Shown here: one piece after another, positions 33,719-43,347 of the stretch
How positions within the stretch are numbered: the first letter of the stretch is position 1
Layout: every line of letters begins with the position of its first letter
Source of the DNA: Chloroflexota bacterium
Lineage (GTDB): Bacteria > Chloroflexota > Limnocylindria > QHBO01
NCBI GenBank assembly: GCA_040902225.1
Contig: JBBDXT010000005.1
Location: 62,001-126,000 of the forward strand
Reading direction: 5' to 3'
Length of the DNA stretch: 64,000 nucleotides
Program-made: the position numbers and the translations under genes
Notes under the pieces: generated by a model
Told to the model about the DNA's origin: nothing
The model's input: the letters and a program-made list of their open reading frames with translations, nothing else
Databases searched by the model: none

Positions 33719-33785
33719 ATCCGGCGCCACGCCTAGGAGCGTCGCTGCGGCATGTCGCCTGACGTGAGTTGGATGGCCCCGTCTT

Positions 33786-33817
33786 CCCATGATCCTCTCA
33801 GGACCGAGCCGTACACC
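33786..33817 (+). promoter_or_regulatory. Island box 1 (CCCATGATCCTCTCAG) plus -10
   Basis: The 16-bp box (33786-33801) is followed by exactly 10 nt and a -10-like TACACC (33812). It lies 23 nt before the S1C protease start. Three sister sites are at 34746, 36841 and 39531. Confidence 0.55.
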
Positions 33818-33824
33818 TGGGGGC

Positions 33825-34685
33825 ATGACTACGAACGAGCAGGCGCCGCAGATGGTGGCGACCCGGGAAACAGACTCATTCCATCCCGTGCCGCAGTGGA
33901 GGGCACGGTGGTCGGTGCTGGTTGTGGCCTCGCTCACGAGCGCGCTTGTGGCCGGCGCATCGTCCGCTGCCCTCGCCGCAGCGCTCTTGACGACCGAGGC
34001 CTCGTCGGCGTCATCGTCCGTTGCCGCGGGCGGTACCGTTCTGGCGGCCACGGAGGACACGTCCACGACCGAGGCGACAATCTCAGGGGTGGTCGCTGAT
34101 GCCAGCAATGCGGTGGTCACCGTCGAGGTTTCGTCGACGAGCTTCCGTGGCACCGCCACCGGTTCGGGCTCGGGCTTCGTCATCAGCGCGGATGGGCTGA
34201 TCGTGACGAGCGCGCATGTCGTCGACGGAGCCAGCACGGTAACCGTGATCTTCAACGACGAGACCCAGACGACCGCCACGGTGGTAGCGAGCGACGGCGA
34301 CCACGACGTTGCCCTACTCGATGTGGATGAAACTGGCTTGCCAACCCTGAGCCTTGCGGAGGGCCTGCCCGATGTCGGATCCGTTGTGATCTCGATGGGA
34401 ACGGCGCTCGGCCAATATCCCGGCACTGTGAACGTCGGTGTGGTCAGCGGCCTCGACCGCGAGATAACCGCCTCCGCCGGCACACCATTCGATACCGAAA
34501 CCTTGACCGGTGTGATCCAGACCGATGCAGCGCTGAACTCCGGCATGTCAGGCGGACCGTTGCTTGACGCGACCGGGGATGTCGTCGGCGTGAATACAGC
34601 CGTCGCGGAAGGCGCGCAAGGCGTGGCCTTCGCTGTCCCGGCGAGTGTCGTCGTGGACCTCGTCGCGCAATTTGCCGCAGATTGA
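33825..34685 (+). CDS. S1C (trypsin/HtrA-like) serine protease without PDZ
   Basis: From ATG 33825 the protein has about 286 aa. A membrane helix lies at residues 30-55, followed by a Ser/Thr-rich linker and a trypsin fold. The catalytic triad is visible: His in TSAHVVDG, Asp in DGDHDVALLDV, and Ser in NSGMSGGPLL (the usual GNSGG reads GMSGG). No PDZ domain follows. It probably degrades or senses misfolded proteins outside the membrane. It is the first gene of the efflux island and has the island box upstream. Confidence 0.82.
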   Translation: MTTNEQAPQMVATRETDSFHPVPQWRARWSVLVVASLTSALVAGASSAALAAALLTTEASSASSSVAAGGTVLAATEDTSTTEATISGVVADASNAVVTVEVSSTSFRGTATGSGSGFVISADGLIVTSAHVVDGASTVTVIFNDETQTTATVVASDGDHDVALLDVDETGLPTLSLAEGLPDVGSVVISMGTALGQYPGTVNVGVVSGLDREITASAGTPFDTETLTGVIQTDAALNSGMSGGPLLDATGDVVGVNTAVAEGAQGVAFAVPASVVVDLVAQFAAD

Positions 34686-34745
34686 CGGGGTCCGCAAGCC
34701 AGCCTAAGGCGTAACGGTCGCATGGCGCGGCGCGCGCGGCGCATT

Positions 34746-34777
34746 CCAAGGACACTCTCAGAATCGGCCGCTATCAG
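34746..34777 (+). promoter_or_regulatory. Island box 4 (variant) plus -10 before the two-component pair
   Basis: CCAAGGACACTCTCAG (34746-34761) matches the island box at 13 of 16 positions. It is followed by exactly 10 nt and TATCAG (34772-34777), 75 nt before the response-regulator ATG. This suggests autoregulation. Confidence 0.45.
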
Positions 34778-34852
34778 TTATGTTGGCCGGCCGCTGTGCT
34801 TCCCCCCAGCACGGCGGCCGGCGCCACGAAGCCGTATCAAGGATCCTGAGCG

Positions 34853-35527
34853 ATGCACCTTCTCGTGGTCGAGGACGATCGCCGTCTAGGCCGTCTCCTG
34901 CAGCGGCTCCTCCGCGAGGAGCGGCACCTGGTTGAGCTGACCGCCTCTGGAGAGGAAGCCCTCGAGATCGCTGAGGCAGGCGATGGCATCGACGCGATGG
35001 TGCTGGACATCGGCCTGCCAGACATGCCCGGAACCGAGGTCGCTCGCCGGCTGCGAGCCGCCGGCTCCAACCTGCCGATCATCATGCTCACGGCACGCGA
35101 CGCGCTGGAAGATCGGGTCGGCGGCCTGGATGCCGGTGCCGACGACTACCTGGTCAAGCCGTTCGCTTTCGAGGAGCTTTCCGCGCGAATACGTGCCCTC
35201 GGGCGGCGCAACGCGAGCCGGCGCGAAGCAGACTCGCGCATCTCAAATGGTTCGATCGTGCTCGACGAGGGCCTCCGACAGGTTCTCGTCGGAGGGCGAC
35301 AAGTGGAACTCAGCCGACGCGAGTTCACATTGCTTGAGACCCTGCTGCGGCATCCTGGCCAGGTCATGACCCGCGATCAGCTGCTCGACGCAGCGTGGCC
35401 ATTCGGTGAATTCCTGACTCACAACACGGTGGACACCTACGTCCACTACCTTCGGACGAAACTCGGCCAGGAGGGCTCTCGGATCCAGACGGTGCGAGGC
35501 GTCGGTTATCGCATGGCTCGGGCCTGA
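34853..35527 (+). CDS. OmpR-family response regulator
   Basis: The 224-aa protein has a receiver domain with the acidic pair E7/D8/D9, phospho-acceptor D52 (VLDIGLPDMPG), T80 region (IIMLTARD) and K102 (LVKPFAFEEL). The C-terminal winged helix ends in HNTVDTYVHYLRTKLG. OmpR-class regulators bind direct repeats upstream of promoters. It is followed by its histidine kinase with a 1-nt overlap (stop/start TGATG) and is the best candidate to read the island box. Confidence 0.93.
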   Translation: MHLLVVEDDRRLGRLLQRLLREERHLVELTASGEEALEIAEAGDGIDAMVLDIGLPDMPGTEVARRLRAAGSNLPIIMLTARDALEDRVGGLDAGADDYLVKPFAFEELSARIRALGRRNASRREADSRISNGSIVLDEGLRQVLVGGRQVELSRREFTLLETLLRHPGQVMTRDQLLDAAWPFGEFLTHNTVDTYVHYLRTKLGQEGSRIQTVRGVGYRMARA

Positions 35528-36822
35528 TGCGCGCAGGTGCCGGCCACACCCGCGACTCTGGACTGCTGCGTGGTGTGCGCTGGCGCTTGGTGGCGTGGAG
35601 CGCTGGCTCCACGCTGCTGCTGCTCGTCACTCTGGGGACCGCCCTCTACCTCAGTGTCAACGCCTCCCTCTCCGCATCCGGGACAGCCCAACTCGAGCAA
35701 CGTGCCGCCGTGCTCACAGGCGTCCTCCGCGGGCAGCCGCCAGGACCGGTCCTCGATGGATCGGACGACAGCCCGTTCGGTCGGCCAATTCTGGGCGGTC
35801 CGGCGTCGGGAACCCTTGCCGTCATAGTCGGCGAGCGGGGCCAGATCGTCGGACCACGGCCTCAGGACTCCACCGATCTGCCGGTGGCCCAAGGCGTCGA
35901 CTGCGCCCTTACCGACGGCAGGGATCTGCGAGATGCCACCATTGGTGGCACGCCAGTGAGGGTCCTCAGCGAATCGGTAACGGTTGATGGCGACGCCTAC
36001 GTGGTCCAGGTCATCCAGGATCGCTCGGCGGAAGTGCGGACCCTTAATGCGTTGCTGACGGTGCTGGTGGCCGGCGGGCTGGCGGTCCTTGCGGTCGCGA
36101 CCGCCTTTGGCTTCCTGTACGCCGGGCGAGCGCTGGTGCCGATCCGGGAGTCTCTCCGCCGACAACGCGAGTTCGCAGCGGATGCCAGCCACGAGTTGCG
36201 GACTCCGCTGACCGTGCTCCAGACGAGCTTGGAATACCTCCTGCGTCACCCGGAGAAACGGGTAAGGGAGGCCACCGACGTCGTCAACGACATGCGGGGC
36301 GAGATCGGACAGCTGACGGCGCTTGTCGATGACCTCCTGCTCCTGGCCCGCAGCGACTCCGGTACGGTCACGCTCAGATCGGAACGCTTCGACCTATCGG
36401 AAGTTGCCGACGAAGCGCTGCAGGGCCTGCGGACTCTGGCGGCCGAGCGCAACGTTGCCCTCCGCCTTGATGCCGCGCCGGTCATCGTCGAGGGCGACCC
36501 GCAGCGACTCCGTCAGCTGGCCGCGATCCTCGCCGGCAACGCGATCAGCCACAGCCCCAGCGGCACCACGGTCAGCGTGACGGTAGCGGGCGACTCCTCC
36601 GCTCACCTGTCGGTCGAGGATGAGGGCGCGGGAATTCGTGACGAGGATCTTCCGCACGTCTTCGATCGCTTCTGGCGAGCGACCGACGCCCCACCGGGCG
36701 GCACCGGCCTCGGGCTGTCGATCGCGAAGTGGATCGCCGAGCACCACCGGGGATCCCTCGAGGTCAGCAACCGGCCCCAGGGTGGTGGCGCCAGATTCGA
36801 ATTACGCCTGCCACGTCACTAG
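35527..36822 (+). CDS. Sensor histidine kinase of the island two-component system
   Basis: The 431-aa protein has a helix near residue 15-45, an extracytoplasmic part of about 125 residues, a second helix near 175-200, and a short HAMP-like linker. The DHp domain has the phospho-acceptor His in ASHELRTPL. The ATP domain shows NAISHSP (N box), EDEGAGI (G1) and GGTGLGLSIAKW (G2). It is predicted to sense an envelope signal and phosphorylate the adjacent regulator. The signal is unknown. Confidence 0.92.
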   Translation: MRAGAGHTRDSGLLRGVRWRLVAWSAGSTLLLLVTLGTALYLSVNASLSASGTAQLEQRAAVLTGVLRGQPPGPVLDGSDDSPFGRPILGGPASGTLAVIVGERGQIVGPRPQDSTDLPVAQGVDCALTDGRDLRDATIGGTPVRVLSESVTVDGDAYVVQVIQDRSAEVRTLNALLTVLVAGGLAVLAVATAFGFLYAGRALVPIRESLRRQREFAADASHELRTPLTVLQTSLEYLLRHPEKRVREATDVVNDMRGEIGQLTALVDDLLLLARSDSGTVTLRSERFDLSEVADEALQGLRTLAAERNVALRLDAAPVIVEGDPQRLRQLAAILAGNAISHSPSGTTVSVTVAGDSSAHLSVEDEGAGIRDEDLPHVFDRFWRATDAPPGGTGLGLSIAKWIAEHHRGSLEVSNRPQGGGARFELRLPRH

Positions 36823-36840
36823 CCTCTGGCAGTGCTCAAT

Positions 36841-36872
36841 CCCATGACCCTCTCAGCATGAGTCCTTAGAAC
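36841..36872 (+). promoter_or_regulatory. Island box 2 (CCCATGACCCTCTCAG) plus -10
   Basis: The box (36841-36856) is followed by exactly 10 nt and TAGAAC (36867-36872), in TTAGAACTGAG. It lies 78 nt before the GTG of the winged-helix gene. Confidence 0.55.
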
Positions 36873-36934
36873 TGAGGGGTGGCCTGAACAGGGCGGAGTT
36901 GGTCCACTCCACATGCCGCGGAAGGGACGGAACC

Positions 36935-37400
36935 GTGTCATCCAATCCACTCCCCTCGGTCATCACAAGACGAGACATTGCCCGGCTGCGGATTCTCGCC
37001 GAGCTCAACGCCGCCGGACCGCTCGACTTCGTCGCGCTGGTGCGCAAGCTTGGACGCGACCCCGCGTTTGAGAGCGAGATGCCACTGGCCACCCTATTGC
37101 GGAGCCTAGAGGCGGAGGGTCTGGTCAGCACGACCGGGGGCCGTCCCCGCCGGTACTGCCTCCGCCTGGTAGGGCGTATCGAGCTCCACGCTTTGATCCA
37201 GGCGGCGAGCGTCGAACTGGCGCGGAAACTCTCCCGCACCGGCCCGCTAGCCCCAGGCCAGCACGCGGCGCAGAGCTCACCGGAACCCGGACTCGATGCA
37301 CGCCGCCACGCGAACCCCACGTCCCCCCTTTCCGCCTTGGGATCCGCACATCCGCCCCGTGCGCCTCCGCCGGCAACCTCCGAGACATCTTCATGGGTTC
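36935..37400 (+). CDS. Winged-helix transcriptional regulator, C-terminus uncertain
   Basis: From GTG 36935 (GGAAGGGACGG upstream) the first about 95 codons encode a winged-helix domain: ITRRDIARLRILAELNAAGP, then a MarR/ArsR-like helix and wing (LATLLRSLEAEGLVSTTGGR, RRYCLRL). Beyond residue 100 the frame loses protein-like character and runs open into the glycosyltransferase gene, to 38374. In another frame a stop lies near 37252, so a frameshift near 37220 is likely. The end given here is nominal, before the hairpin at 37401. Confidence 0.5.
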
Positions 37401-37429
37401 GAGAGGCGTGGGCAATACCCACGCCTCTC
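37401..37429 (+). terminator. 12-bp perfect stem-loop before the GT39 gene
   Basis: GAGAGGCGTGGG and its exact complement are separated by 5 nt (CAATA). No T-run follows, but the stem is strong. It may terminate the winged-helix transcript or act as an attenuator for the glycosyltransferase 60 nt downstream. Confidence 0.5.
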
Positions 37430-37490
37430 ACGGCTGTCTCTTCGAAAACTCCCATGCGTTTCCAATGCTCGGGCGTAAGGCTGGTTTCGC

Positions 37491-39521
37491 ATGACCAGCC
37501 ACACGACCTCCGGCGTTCCCGAGCCGCGGACTGCCATTCCGGACGCACTGCGCCGTGCCGGATCGCGTCTTTCGGCGCCGCCCCTGCCAACAGGGTGGAT
37601 GCGACTGATTCCTCGGACTCGCGATGCCGCGTGGGTCACCCCTGCGCTGGCCCTCGTCCTGGCAGGAACCGGAGTGCTGTACCTGTGGGGGCTGGATGCA
37701 TCGGGCTGGGCGAACGCCTACTACTCCGCTGCTGCCCAGGCAGGCTCGGAGAACTGGCTGGCGATGCTGTTCGGGGCGCTGGACGCTGGAAACGCGATCA
37801 GCATCGACAAGACCCCCGCTTCGGTGTGGGTCATGGCCCTCAGCGTCCGGATGTTCGGCATGAGCTCGTGGAGCGTGCTCGCGCCCCAAGCGCTGATGGG
37901 CGTCGGCTCCGTTTGGCTCCTGTATCTGACCGTCCGGCGAAGTTTCGGTCCGATCGCCGGGCTCGTAGCCGGCACCTTCCTCGCCCTTACCCCGGTGGCG
38001 GTTCTCATGTTCCGGTTCAACAACCCGGACGCTTTGCTCGTCCTCCTGCTGGTCGGATCGGTCTACGCCACCACGCGAGCGCTGGAGACCGCTTCGACCC
38101 GCTGGCTGGTCGCGGCTGGAGTGGCGGTCGGGCTCGCATTCCTGACAAAGATGCTGCAGGGCTTCCTGATCGTCCCCGCCCTGGCCGGCGTCTATCTCGT
38201 AGCCGCTCCAACCACCCTCCGACGCAGGCTGTGGCAGGTCGCTGCCGCAGGCGTAGCAGTTCTGGTCTCGGCCGGCTGGTACATAGCCCTGGTGGAGCTC
38301 TTGCCGCCCGACGCACGCCCATATGTTGGTGGATCACAGACGAACAGTCTCATCGAGCTGATGCTCGGCTATAACGGCCTCGGGCGCCTGTCCGGAGATG
38401 AGATCGGACGCGTCGGAGGAGGCGGAGGGTTCGGCGCCGGTGCCGGGCTGCTCAGACTGTTCCAAGGCGAAACGGCCACCGAAGCCAGCTGGCTCCTACC
38501 GGCGGCGCTGGTGGCGCTGGGCGGCCTGCTGTTGTGGAGGCGCGGCACGCCCCGCACCGACATGGCCCGCGCCCATGTGCTGCTCTGGGGCGGGTGGCTA
38601 GTCGGGACCGGATTGGTTTTCAGCCTGATGCAGGGCATCTTCCATGAGTACTACACCGTTGCCTTGGCGCCGGCGATCGCCGCCCTCGTCGGCATCGGGG
38701 CCGGAACCGCCTGGCGTCGACGATCGCAAGCGGGGTCACTCATTGTTGCGGCGGCAACCGTCGGCGTGTCGGCGGTTTGGGCTGCCGTCCTGTTGTGGAA
38801 CAGCCCCAGTTGGATGCCCTGGCTGGCCTGGGCGGTAATCGCCGCCGGTACCTTCGCCGTTGCGGCGTTGCTGCTCGCCATCGTCGATTTCAGGAGGGCG
38901 ACGCGACGGATCGCCCTTCTTGCATCCCTGGGCGCCCTGCTGCTAGGCCCGGGGGTCGCATCGGTCGCCACCGCCGCCGAGCCGCACACCGGCGCCATCC
39001 CAACGGCGGCACCGCGCGCAGAAACTGGGGCCGGCCAGTTCGGTGGCGGCGGAGGCTTCGGGTTCGGCGGAAACGACGGCGGCGCATTCAGCCCGCCAGG
39101 TCGTGGGTTCGGCGGCGGCTTCGGCGGTGGTGGTGGCGGGTTGGGCGGCCTCTTGGATGCCGGTGCGGCGGACCCTGAGCTGATCGACCTGTTGGAGACG
39201 GACGCCGACGGGTTCCGATGGGCCGCCGCCACGACCGGAGCCAATAACGCCGCCGGCCTGGCGTTGTCAAGTGGGACTTCGGTGTTGAGCATCGGCGGCT
39301 TCAACGGGACCGACCCCTACCCCACGCTTGCGCAATTCCAGGCCTATGTGGCCGACGGGGCGATCCACTACTACGTGGCTGGTGGGGACGCAAGTGGATT
39401 CCGCGGCGCCAGCGGCGGTTCAGATGTAGCGGCGCAGATCGCGGAGTGGGTCAATACCACGTTCCCGGCGATGACCGTCGGCGGCGTGGCCGTCTACGAC
39501 CTCACGACTCCGCTCGGATGA
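37491..39521 (+). CDS. Family 39 glycosyltransferase (ArnT/PMT-like)
   Basis: The 676-aa protein has about 12 membrane helices. The first extracellular loop has YYSAAAQAGSENWLA and the later SIDKTPASVWVMALSVRMFG, matching the lipid-linked-sugar glycosyltransferases of the YkcB/ArnT type. A Gly-rich linker (about residues 510-560) leads to a C-terminal extracytoplasmic domain of about 110 aa. It probably glycosylates a wall polymer, lipid or protein outside the membrane. Its position between the two-component system and an exporter suggests an envelope modification response. Confidence 0.85.
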   Translation: MTSHTTSGVPEPRTAIPDALRRAGSRLSAPPLPTGWMRLIPRTRDAAWVTPALALVLAGTGVLYLWGLDASGWANAYYSAAAQAGSENWLAMLFGALDAGNAISIDKTPASVWVMALSVRMFGMSSWSVLAPQALMGVGSVWLLYLTVRRSFGPIAGLVAGTFLALTPVAVLMFRFNNPDALLVLLLVGSVYATTRALETASTRWLVAAGVAVGLAFLTKMLQGFLIVPALAGVYLVAAPTTLRRRLWQVAAAGVAVLVSAGWYIALVELLPPDARPYVGGSQTNSLIELMLGYNGLGRLSGDEIGRVGGGGGFGAGAGLLRLFQGETATEASWLLPAALVALGGLLLWRRGTPRTDMARAHVLLWGGWLVGTGLVFSLMQGIFHEYYTVALAPAIAALVGIGAGTAWRRRSQAGSLIVAAATVGVSAVWAAVLLWNSPSWMPWLAWAVIAAGTFAVAALLLAIVDFRRATRRIALLASLGALLLGPGVASVATAAEPHTGAIPTAAPRAETGAGQFGGGGGFGFGGNDGGAFSPPGRGFGGGFGGGGGGLGGLLDAGAADPELIDLLETDADGFRWAAATTGANNAAGLALSSGTSVLSIGGFNGTDPYPTLAQFQAYVADGAIHYYVAGGDASGFRGASGGSDVAAQIAEWVNTTFPAMTVGGVAVYDLTTPLG

Positions 39522-39530
39522 GGGCGATTT

Positions 39531-39562
39531 CCCATGATCCTCCAAGACGGCGCCGTTAGAAC
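39531..39562 (+). promoter_or_regulatory. Island box 3 (CCCATGATCCTCCAAG) plus -10
   Basis: The box (39531-39546) is followed by exactly 10 nt and TAGAAC (39557-39562). It lies 70 nt before the adaptor gene that starts the exporter operon. Confidence 0.55.
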
Positions 39563-39616: not shown

Positions 39617-40770
39617 ATGAGACTTTGGTGGTTTGCGACTGCGGGCCTCGTCCTGGTCGGGCTGGCTGCCGTGGCGTTCGCCGTCCTCGGTCCGACGCTG
39701 GCGGGGAGCGAGGAGGTCGAGTATCTGACGTCGACCGTGGCTACCGCGGACGTGACCGACGAAGTGGTGGCGACGGGAACTCTCCAGGCGGCTCGAACCT
39801 ACACGCTGAGCTTCGGGAGCGAGCCGGTCGTCTCCAACGCCTCGCCGTCGACAACTGGCTCGCCGTCGACGGACGGCAGCACGGATTCTCCGGGCGGCGC
39901 GAGTTCGACTGTCACCTGGAACGTCGCGGCCGTCAACGTGGCCCTTGGAGACCACGTCGCCGAGGGTGATGTATTGGCCACCAGCGACACCTCCGACCTC
40001 CAAGCCGATATCGCCGTCGCTAGTGCGAAGGTCGATGCCGCCGAGGAACAGGTTGACGCAGCCGACGATGACCTGGCGGTTGCGACCGCCGAGTCCGCGC
40101 TGCTCGAGGCTGAGCGCACGCTTGCGCAGCTGCAGGCCGCCAGCGACCACACGAGCTTGGTCGCGCCGGCCGCCGGCACCGTCACCACACTGAACATCGA
40201 GGAGGGGACGAGTGCTCCCGACGGGGCGGCGATCGTGATCACCTCTGACGCGCTGGTCGCTACCGGCACCGTCAGCGAGGCCGACGTATCGACGATTGCC
40301 GTCGGCCAGGAGGCGACCGTCAGCCTGTCCGCCCTTGACGCCGATGTGAACGGCCAGGTGACCGATGTCGCCCTATCGGGCTCTTCGACCAGCGGCGTGG
40401 TCGGATTCGGATTTCTGATCCGCCTCGACGAGGTGCCCGACGGAGCGCGGCCGGGCATGAGCGCCGACATCAGCGTGGTGGCCGCAGAGGCACTCGACGT
40501 GCTGGCTGTCCCGAGCGCCGCCATCGATGGGTCAGCGCGTACACGGTCACCGTGCTGGCAGAAGACGGCTCCACCGAGACGCGTCCGGTAGAACTTGGCC
40601 TGGTGACCGACGATCTGGCGGAAATCACCGACGGACTGAGTGCCGGCGAGACGGTGGTCACGGGCACCGCGTCCGACCAGCAGACCACGACCAACAACGG
40701 CGGCTTCGGCGGACCAGGCGGCTTCGGCGGACCAGGCGGGGGCGGCTTTGTGGCTCCGGGCGGCAACTGA
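39617..40770 (+). pseudogene. HlyD/MacA-type periplasmic adaptor, frameshifted near its end
   Basis: The first frame (39617-40591) gives a signal anchor, a lipoyl half (VALGDHVAEGDVLATSDT), a short coiled coil (about residues 133-180), the second lipoyl half (LVAPAAGTVTTLNIEEG) and a beta-barrel part ending VPSAAIDGSA. One missing base near 40534-40540 shifts it off. The continuation AYTVTVLAEDGSTETRPVEL runs in another frame to TGA at 40768-40770, with a Gly-rich tail. It couples a MacB-type ABC pair that follows directly; the ABC ATPase ATG overlaps its stop by 1 nt. Sequencing error is likely, since the operon is otherwise intact. Confidence 0.78.
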
Positions 40771-41444
40771 TGGGTAGCGCGATCATCTCGCTCCAGAAGG
40801 TGAGCCGCATCTACCGGCTGGGGCCGGTCGAGGTGCCGGCGCTCATCGACGCCACCCTGGATGTCGGCGAGGGCGAGTTCGTCGCCATCGTCGGGCCGTC
40901 AGGCTCGGGCAAGACGACGATGATGAACATCCTCGGCTGCCTGGACCGGCCGAGCTCCGGCCGCTATCTCTTCGATGGGGTCGCAGTCGACGGACTGACC
41001 GATGACCAGCTGGCCATCGTCCGCAGTCGAGGCATCGGCTTCATCTTCCAAAACTACAGCCTCCTGCCGCGGACCACCGCCCTCGAGAACGTGGCGACGC
41101 CGCTGCTCTACCAGGGGGTTGCACGGGCGGAGCGGCTGCGCCGCGCGCGAGAGGCGCTCGAGCGCGTCGGCTTGGCGGATCGGCTCAGCCACTACCCCTC
41201 CGAGCTGTCGGGAGGACAGCAGCAGCGGGTGGCTGTGGCACGCGCCATCGTGACCGAGCCGCGCATGGTGCTGGCCGATGAGCCGACCGGCAACCTCGAC
41301 TCGCGTACCGGGGCCGAGGTCATGAGCCTGCTCCACGAGCTGAACGAAGCGGGACGCACGATCGTGCTCATCACCCATGAGCGCGAGGTGGCCGAAGCGG
41401 CGGGCCGGCAGATCCACCTGCGAGATGGGCAGGTGGCGGCATGA
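40770..41444 (+). CDS. ABC transporter ATP-binding protein, MacB/LolD type
   Basis: The 224-aa protein has Walker A GPSGSGKTT, Q-loop FIFQNYSLLPRT, signature LSGGQQQRVAVARAIV, Walker B MVLADEPTGNLD and H-loop ITHER. GNLDSRTG is typical of the MacB/LolD class, which powers extraction or export through an FtsX-type permease. The permease starts within its stop codon. Confidence 0.92.
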   Translation: MGSAIISLQKVSRIYRLGPVEVPALIDATLDVGEGEFVAIVGPSGSGKTTMMNILGCLDRPSSGRYLFDGVAVDGLTDDQLAIVRSRGIGFIFQNYSLLPRTTALENVATPLLYQGVARAERLRRAREALERVGLADRLSHYPSELSGGQQQRVAVARAIVTEPRMVLADEPTGNLDSRTGAEVMSLLHELNEAGRTIVLITHEREVAEAAGRQIHLRDGQVAA

Positions 41445-42649
41445 GCGTCCGCGAGTTGATCGTGCTCTCGCTGCAGCGCATCGGCGCCAACCCGTTGCGG
41501 AGCGCACTGACCATGCTCGGCGTGATCATCGGGGTCGCTTCGGTGGTCGCGGTCGTGGCGGTCGGTCAAGGGTCCGGAGTACGCATCAGTAGTTCGATCA
41601 GCGCATTGGGCACGAACCTGCTAACGATCAGCGCTGGCGGCCAATTCAACGGATTGGTGCGCGGCGCGGCAGGGAGCGCCAGCACGCTCAGCCTCGAGGA
41701 TGCCGCGGCGATCGCGGAGCTGGCATCGGTGGCCGCCGTGGCGCCGACCGCAACAACCCAACAGGTGGTTGCCTATGGCGACGAGAACACGACGACCACG
41801 ATCACGGGCACCACCAGCTCCTACCTCGGTATCCGCGCCTACGAGATCTGGCAGGGATCGTTCCTGAATGAAGCTGCCGAGGACTACTCGCTGCGCGTTG
41901 CGGTCCTGGGGGCCGACACCGCTGAGACGCTGGGACTGGACGCGGATGACCTCGGCAGCCAGATCCGCATCGGCGGCCTGCCGTTTACCGTGATTGGCAT
42001 CCTTCAACCGAAGGGTGGAGTCGGGGGCGCCACCGATGATGTCGTGTTCGTGCCGCTGGCCACCCTGGCGCATCAATTGGTCGGCGGGGACAGCCTGAGC
42101 AGCATCAGTGTCAGCGTGGTCGAGGGAAATAGCACGAGCGCAGCGAGCTCCCTGGTCTCGGCCCTGCTGCGGGCACGCCACGGGATCAATGACTCGCAGG
42201 ACAGCGACTTCAGCGTGGCCAGCCACGATCAGCTGCTGGAGGTGGCCACGTCCGTCTCGGACACGCTGACACTGCTGCTGGTCGCCATCGGCTCGATCTC
42301 GCTGGTGGTGGGCGGGATCGGGATCATGAACATCATGCTGGTCAGCGTTCGAGAACGAACGCGAGAGATCGGCATCCGCAAGGCAATCGGTGCCAAGCGC
42401 CGCGATGTTCTCGCTCAATTCCTGGTCGAGGCCGTTGTTCTGTCGGTCCTCGGCGGGATTCTGGGCGTGGCCATGGGCGCGCTGGCGTCGTTTGTTATTG
42501 GTCAGGTCGCGGGCTGGGGTTTCGTCTTCAGCCTCCCGACCGTCGGCATCGCCCTGGGCTTCAGCGCCCTGATCGGCATCGTCTTCGGAGTCTGGCCGGC
42601 GCGCCAAGCAGCCGTGCTCGACCCGATCGTGGCGCTTCGCTACGAGTGA
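41441..42649 (+). CDS. MacB/FtsX-type ABC permease
   Basis: The 402-aa protein has the N-terminal helix motif RIGANPLRSALTMLGVIIGVASVVA, a large extracytoplasmic domain of about 220 residues, and three C-terminal helices with MNIMLVSVRERTREIGIRKA. It pairs with the preceding ATPase and the adaptor. Such systems export macrolides, peptides or lipoproteins. The ATGA overlap (41441-41444) couples it to the ATPase. Confidence 0.92.
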   Translation: MSVRELIVLSLQRIGANPLRSALTMLGVIIGVASVVAVVAVGQGSGVRISSSISALGTNLLTISAGGQFNGLVRGAAGSASTLSLEDAAAIAELASVAAVAPTATTQQVVAYGDENTTTTITGTTSSYLGIRAYEIWQGSFLNEAAEDYSLRVAVLGADTAETLGLDADDLGSQIRIGGLPFTVIGILQPKGGVGGATDDVVFVPLATLAHQLVGGDSLSSISVSVVEGNSTSAASSLVSALLRARHGINDSQDSDFSVASHDQLLEVATSVSDTLTLLLVAIGSISLVVGGIGIMNIMLVSVRERTREIGIRKAIGAKRRDVLAQFLVEAVVLSVLGGILGVAMGALASFVIGQVAGWGFVFSLPTVGIALGFSALIGIVFGVWPARQAAVLDPIVALRYE

Positions 42650-42672
42650 ACCAAGAGGAGTACGTAACCATC

Positions 42673-43143
42673 ATGTCAACCAATACCTCTCCGACTGCCG
42701 AGCTCTTGGAAAAGAGCCGGCGGCGGCCAACATCACCTCGGATCTTCGCGGCACTCGCTCTTGGCGGCGCCCTCGCCGTCGGCGGGTTGGCCTTCGCCGG
42801 CGGCCGCCTGACGGCCCCAGCAGCCGCGGCCTTCCCCGGAGGCGGAGGCGGTCCGGGGCCGGGCGGGTTCCAGGGACCAGGAGGCCAGGGCCCGGGCGGC
42901 GGTGGATTCGGGGGCGGCGGGCTTGGGCTGACGGGAACGATCACGTCGCTCGACGCCGACGTGCTCACCCTCCAGACCGCGGACGGCTCCACCATCACCG
43001 TCAACCTCTCGGGTGACACGACCTATGCGCGCGAGGACACCGCCACCTCGGATGAGCTGGCCGAAGGCACGGACGTGCGCATCGGGATCGATTTCGGCGA
43101 TGGAGGCATGTGGGCAGCAATGAGGTGGACGCCAGCTCCGTGA
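42673..43143 (+). CDS. DUF5666-like secreted protein, probable 3' frameshift
   Basis: ATG 42673 has AAGAGGAG upstream. The protein has an N-terminal helix (about residues 25-50), a Gly/Pro-rich linker, and a small beta domain LTGTITSLDADVLTLQTADG resembling DUF5666. The current frame ends WAAMRWTPAP at 43143. In the adjacent frame the natural-looking end EVDASSVTITEPQ runs to TGA at 43161-43163, so one more frameshift near 43110-43120 is likely. It is the last gene of the exporter operon. Confidence 0.65.
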   Translation: MSTNTSPTAELLEKSRRRPTSPRIFAALALGGALAVGGLAFAGGRLTAPAAAAFPGGGGGPGPGGFQGPGGQGPGGGGFGGGGLGLTGTITSLDADVLTLQTADGSTITVNLSGDTTYAREDTATSDELAEGTDVRIGIDFGDGGMWAAMRWTPAP

Positions 43144-43219: not shown

Positions 43220-43273
43220 ATACCACCATGGGTGGTATCGGTCGAGAGGCGAATCCCCACACCTTGTGGGTTT
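43220..43273 (+). terminator. Two hairpins after the exporter operon
   Basis: ATACCACC-ATG-GGTGGTAT (43220-43238) is an 8-bp perfect stem. CCCACA-CCT-TGTGGG (43256-43270) is followed by TTT. They separate the efflux operon from the convergent tRNA-Gln. Confidence 0.5.
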
Positions 43274-43275
43274 GG

Positions 43276-43347
43276 CTGGGGCGGAAGGATTCGAACCTTC
43301 GATCTCCTGATCCAGAGTCAGGCGCCTTACCGCTTGGCCACTCCCCA
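43276..43347 (-). tRNA. tRNA-Gln (anticodon CTG)
   Basis: The minus strand reads TGGGGAGTGGCCAAGCGGTA at its start and ends in TTCGAATCCTTCCGCCCCAG, followed by an encoded CCA. The anticodon arm CCTGA-CTCTGGA-TCAGG places CTG at 34-36. The acceptor stem has one A-G mismatch at the sixth pair. Confidence 0.92.

Follow-up and report, generated by a model that had tools for sequence, protein, structure and literature searches.

A conserved tandem-repeat box as the predicted operator of an OmpR/PhoB-class regulator in a protease and exporter island of Chloroflexota

In the window, the 64,000-nucleotide stretch of Chloroflexota DNA that was analysed here, a 17-bp direct repeat lies directly upstream of the -10 elements of an HtrA-like protease gene, a two-component system, a winged-helix gene and an exporter operon. 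On the basis of sequence comparison, this box is very probably the landing site and operator of the adjacent OmpR/PhoB-class response regulator, within an autoregulated activator circuit, because one letter of the box changes together with the DNA-reading residue of the regulator across about 90 gene clusters. Computation established the repeat with its spacing, the conservation at orthologous promoters, the near-exclusive confinement to the island in this genome and the covariation with residue 199 of the regulator. The first-pass interpretation is largely right: the system is best described as an autoregulated regulon for envelope stress, similar in kind to known ones and with a clear, testable specificity rule, for which binding, activation and signal are predicted.

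The island consists of the following genes:

33825..34685, + strand: S1C (HtrA/DegP-like) serine protease, protease domain only
34853..35527, + strand: OmpR/PhoB-class response regulator, recognition helix NTVDTYVHYLR, with Tyr199 as the putative specificity residue
35527..36822, + strand: membrane histidine kinase (HisKA, HATPase_c), with orthologs in 91 relatives of the class
36935..37492, + strand: small putative winged-helix protein, with sub-threshold Pfam matches only
37491..39521, + strand: YkcB-like GT39-type membrane glycosyltransferase (PMT_2, YkcB_C)
39617..40591, + strand: HlyD/MacA-like adaptor, reading frame broken near the C-terminus
40776..41444, + strand: MacB/LolD-type ABC ATPase
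41441..42649, + strand: MacB-type permease (MacB_PCD, FtsX)
42646..43143, + strand: exported protein rich in glycine, weakly matching DUF5666 and syntenic in relatives

S1C (HtrA/Deg) proteases contain a trypsin-like domain, usually combined with a PDZ domain. The protease of the island matched TIGR02037 in its protease part only (E 1.7e-42, below the family cut-off), and a PDZ match was not obtained. For the regulator, a receiver and a winged-helix Trans_reg_C domain were identified, and for the adjacent kinase HisKA and HATPase_c, all with Pfam scores over the cut-off.

When the promoters were aligned with those of relatives, the box was identified as a direct repeat, TCYCAK-N5-TCTCAK, with a period of 11 bp, followed by ten nucleotides and a -10 element. 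The sites in the window are:

33785..33801, + strand: operator 1, TCCCATGATCCTCTCAG, a 17-bp direct repeat upstream of the HtrA-like protease gene, rank 1 with the matrix trained on relatives
33812..33817, + strand: -10 element TACACC of the protease promoter
34745..34761, + strand: operator 2, TCCAAGGACACTCTCAG, before the response regulator (predicted autoregulation), matrix rank 3
34772..34777, + strand: -10 element TATCAG of the response regulator promoter
36840..36856, + strand: operator 3, TCCCATGACCCTCTCAG, upstream of the winged-helix gene and of GT39 further downstream, matrix rank 2
36867..36872, + strand: -10 element TAGAAC of the winged-helix promoter
37450..37466, + strand: weak operator, TCCCATGCGTTTCCAAT, before the GT39 gene, matrix rank 9; the GT39 homologs of two related loci (L173 and L175) have perfect boxes
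39530..39546, + strand: operator 4, TCCCATGATCCTCCAAG, before the exporter operon, matrix rank 8
39557..39562, + strand: -10 element TAGAAC of the exporter operon promoter

The first-pass annotation had described a 16-bp box at four of these sites, each ending 10 nt before one of the listed -10 elements (at 33812, 34772, 36867 and 39557). The four sequences and their distances were found as described; the 16-mer, however, starts one base late, and the unit is a tandem pair of hexamers of 17 bp in total. The weaker match proposed at 37451, before the GT39 gene, stood in so far as the matrix ranked it and perfect boxes occur in the two related loci, but its second half is weak. In the window, this applies both to the GT39 box (TCCAAT) and to the exporter box (TCCAAG), and the two, individually weak, owe their assignment mostly to their position and to the same boxes in relatives. 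The protease ATG at 33825 lies 7 nt past TACACC and exactly at +40 from the start of the box. Because of this short distance, the protease mRNA is probably leaderless.

At the boxed promoters a conserved -35 hexamer was not seen, and every box occupies the same place immediately before the -10 element. Activation was inferred from this adjacency. The same regulator might instead repress from the same operator, in a derepression circuit, or act in both ways depending on the promoter. Streptomyces CutR is reported to activate htrA3 and to repress htrB, with its sites placed differently at the two (PMC12802291). The uniform position of the boxes and the missing -35 hexamer are, however, the arrangement expected for activation, and a repressing or dual role is considered unlikely.

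How rare the box is was determined by pattern searches of the genome and by a matrix ranking of the window (about 128,000 positions). With up to three mismatches, the 16-mer recovered three of the four sites in the window (0, 1 and 2 mismatches), compared to 0.75 expected from shuffles; taken alone this is weak evidence, as 9 of 100 shuffles reached three matches. The copy at 34746 has four mismatches to the 16-mer and was missed by this search. Across the own genome (2.28 Mb, 99% complete), the box was not frequent at unrelated genes, in line with the first-pass annotation: copies of the 16-mer with up to two mismatches were present only at three island sites. Seventeen more sites had exactly three mismatches, and a reversed control pattern gave 6 in all. 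For the pattern TCYCAK N5 TCTCAK N10 TANNNY, two perfect matches were identified genome-wide, both inside the island, and the remaining two island sites were among seven genomic sites with two mismatches (control, 6). Further regulon members outside the island were not detected above the control in this search for the box with its -10 element. Decisive for the reality of the sites was the scoring matrix, which was trained solely on the promoters of relatives, with the window excluded, and which placed the sites at 33785, 36840 and 34745 at ranks 1, 2 and 3 of the window (22.5, 19.1 and 16.6 bits). Ranks 8 and 9 were obtained for 39530 (7.1 bits) and for the weak GT39 match at 37450 (5.5 bits). 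The top scores of 20 Markov shuffles averaged 12.0 bits and never exceeded 16.7.

Orthologs of the kinase and regulator were identified in 91 other genomes of the class, with kinase identities of about 41-56%, and named records of the same kind as the kinase of the window come from Chloroflexi MAGs. When GT39 was used as the synteny anchor, most of the loci obtained were paralogous and contained another regulator, with Arg at this position, and the kinase was used instead. In the relatives the genes commonly follow each other in the order HtrA, adaptor, ABC ATPase, permease, DUF5666, response regulator and histidine kinase. Since the neighbourhoods commonly hold HtrA, the MacAB-like exporter, the regulator and the kinase, these genes belong together across the class.

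The box was conserved in these relatives, as the first-pass annotation had anticipated. It was present upstream of HtrA, the exporter adaptor and the response regulator, and in the loci L173 and L175 also upstream of GT39, with the 11-bp period and the fixed ten nucleotides to the -10 element retained. The ATG was most often at +39 or +40 from the start of the box, which fits leaderless transcripts like that of the protease in the window. In 60 ortholog loci, counted over whole loci and beyond the mapped promoters, TCTCA-N6-TCTCA occurred in 42 copies, and the other spacers from 0 to 30 gave 0, 1 or 2 copies each. TCTCA was also the most over-represented real 5-mer at an 11-bp period in these loci (503 times observed over expected). 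Genomes with the kinase contained a mean of 1.56 boxes, compared to 0.47 in those without (Mann-Whitney p ~1e-7).

The rigid spacing to the -10 element, identical in the promoters compared, would also be seen if the box were the -35-like block of an alternative (ECF) sigma-factor promoter. However, a tandem repeat with an 11-bp period which tolerates no other spacer is a hallmark of OmpR/PhoB dimers, the letters of the box follow the recognition-helix residue of the adjacent regulator, and the -10 letters look like those of a housekeeping -10. An ECF promoter is therefore regarded as highly improbable, and the box is better explained as a regulator operator.

The proposal that the adjacent regulator is the reader gained strong indirect support when the loci were sorted by the recognition-helix residue preceding Leu-Arg, which is Tyr199 in the window. 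Counted over whole loci, the Tyr class (48 loci) contained 57 TCTCA repeats and no TTCAK repeats, and the Leu class (38 loci) 33 TTCAK repeats and no TCTCA repeats. Loci L070-L072, which duplicate the contigs of L138, L166 and L163, were counted once in the repeat and residue counts. A perfect repeat was absent from 12 of the 48 Tyr-class loci (window included) and 18 of the 38 Leu-class loci, partly due to short contigs; as many contigs are short, a missing box often says little about the locus. In the two Phe loci, the regulator gene is preceded by TTTCAG-N5-TTTGAG and TTTCAC-N5-TTTCAT. For the three Arg loci, TGTCA repeats were predicted and were not found as perfect repeats; here, KTTCAG-N5-YGTCAG is present before the adaptor, with G only in the proximal half, and the Arg rule (G in the proximal half) was fitted after this prediction had failed. 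A distant Tyr-bearing paralog in another genome (L193, 43% identity) has TCTCAT-N5-TCTCAT before its own gene. Among 224 alignment columns, residue 199 was the best single predictor of the half-site type, with C in 40/40 cases for Tyr and T in 20/20 for Leu and 3/3 for Phe; six loci in this test were typed by hand from imperfect boxes.

Tyr199 aligns with Asn196 of PmrA, and Arg201 of PhoB is taken to be the counterpart of residue 199. PmrA Asn196 is one of two recognition-helix residues with base-specific contacts (PMC4660055), and PhoB Arg201 bonds to guanine (PMC3973317). In the best estimate of the kinase tree, three Tyr/Leu changes were identified, each with a matching change of the operator; on the strongly supported branches, only one independent Tyr/Leu contrast is present. 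The association of residue and operator is therefore complete, but not yet independent many times over, and since the covariation is clustered by phylogeny, neighbouring residues of the helix could share the effect. On balance, residue 199 appears to set base 2 of the half-site (C for Tyr, T for Leu and Phe, and G for Arg in the half proximal to the -10 element). The residue and the whole regulon would have switched together several times, so single swaps should re-address the regulator.

The box might be read by another protein, either the island's own winged-helix protein or some other regulator of the OmpR type. The promoter of the winged-helix gene itself carries a box, the Tyr-bearing paralog L193 has the same box, and genomes without a kinase ortholog still contain 0.47 boxes on average, which means that the sequence can also serve other regulators. 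However, no counterpart of the winged-helix gene was matched in the loci of relatives, where the box is conserved. Moreover, among the eight OmpR-type regulators of the own genome, only that of the window has Tyr at the deciding position, the other seven having W, H, N or R, and it is the adjacent regulator that covaries with the box. A different reader is thus very unlikely, and the adjacent regulator is retained as the predicted one.

In the proposed mechanism, the membrane kinase (35527-36822) would sense an envelope signal and phosphorylate the regulator (34853-35527). A regulator dimer would then bind head to tail on the two hexamers of TCYCAK-N5-TCTCAK, one helical turn apart, with Tyr199 reading base 2 (C) of each half-site. 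Positioned just upstream of the -10 element, in place of a -35 element, the dimer would recruit RNA polymerase. The protease (from a leaderless mRNA), the winged-helix and GT39 genes and the MacAB-like exporter operon would be switched on, and the two-component genes would also be activated by their own regulator, resulting in positive feedback. The labels "efflux" and "envelope stress" are drawn from the gene families; the conserved gene set suggests quality control of envelope proteins together with the export of some substrate.

With this system, a poorly studied Chloroflexota lineage gains a well-defined predicted envelope-stress regulon, comprising a protease, an exporter, a glycosyltransferase and its own regulator, which can be read from sequence alone. 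The approximately 90 orthologous regulators form a natural set in which a single operator base varies along with a single residue that contacts DNA, which makes the specificity switching of regulators and regulons testable by single mutations. If the code is true, single-residue swaps should direct the regulator to other half-sites. In the literature, no paper was found on the box (a TCTCAG direct repeat with a response regulator) or on two-component systems in Limnocylindria.

Several known systems are similar in part. The PmrA/BasR operator consists of two hexamers, CTTAAT and CCTAAG, separated by N5 (PMC3973317). PmrA/BasR of Klebsiella and Escherichia, which ranked with the best matches of the regulator to families and solved structures, shares with it the hexamer-N5-hexamer arrangement, the head-to-tail dimer (predicted here) and, with Asn196, the position of Tyr199. 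It differs in its half-site letters, in the residue and in its regulon, which contains polymyxin-resistance genes instead of a protease and an ABC exporter. Neither Asn at the base-reading position nor CTTAAT-like half-sites were found in the window, where Tyr199 and TCYCAK are present, and the NCBIfam PmrA score of the regulator (190) was below the cut-off of 330. PhoB likewise uses an 11-bp-period direct repeat replacing the -35 element, and its half-site TGTCA differs from TCTCA at base 2 alone; in contrast to the system described here, it has Arg instead of Tyr, G instead of C, and a different regulon. A tandem direct repeat with a period of about one helical turn, as is characteristic of the OmpR/PhoB class, was found at the orthologous promoters.

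CutRS/CssRS of Streptomyces and MprAB of Actinobacteria are comparable two-component systems which control HtrA-type proteases in envelope or secretion stress. The CutR operator is TAWATAAA and does not match the box, the MprA operator is TKTTAAGAAM (in the C. glutamicum type compared here) in place of TCYCAK-N5-TCTCAK, and the core regulons, in the descriptions consulted, include neither a MacAB-like exporter nor a DUF5666 gene, unlike the present one. The CutS-type pair of invariant sensor cysteines was not seen on inspection of the kinase in the window, the sensor region of which contains one Cys. CiaRH also controls HtrA and thus resembles CssRS/CutRS and MprAB in purpose. BaeSR and others are OmpR-class two-component systems controlling an exporter; here, by contrast, protease, exporter and signalling genes are united in a single conserved cluster of Chloroflexota. 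By analogy, the predicted operator architecture corresponds to that of PhoB and PmrA, and the likely purpose to that of CssRS/CutRS, MprAB and CiaRH. Among systems of this known kind, the present one stands out by an unusually instructive natural covariation.

In the window, the start codon of the gene for the HtrA-like protease was identified only 7 nt past the -10 element (33812-33827), implying that the protease mRNA is leaderless. In many relatives, the HtrA or regulator gene has the same arrangement of -10 element and start codon.

The reading frame of the HlyD/MacA-like adaptor gene, which opens at 39617, ends with a stop at 40591. A frame break is present close to the C-terminus, within 40500-40775, and in the same interval a second frame beyond the break encodes a plausible adaptor C-terminus, reaching the ABC gene. 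Either the assembly is wrong at this point, or the lesion is genuine. The edge of the island may be marked by the following gene:

43273-43347, minus strand, tRNA-Gln (CTG) gene, directly downstream of the exporter operon

In the related loci L119 and L135, divergent promoters with at least two back-to-back operator copies, on both strands, are located 5.0-5.7 kb and 5.2 kb upstream of the kinase, respectively.

At a further related locus, L193, a paralogous OmpR-type regulator was identified (43% identity), which contains Tyr at the deciding position of the recognition helix. Its own promoter bears the same TCTCA repeat; where a genome contains both regulators, the two may therefore use common operators.
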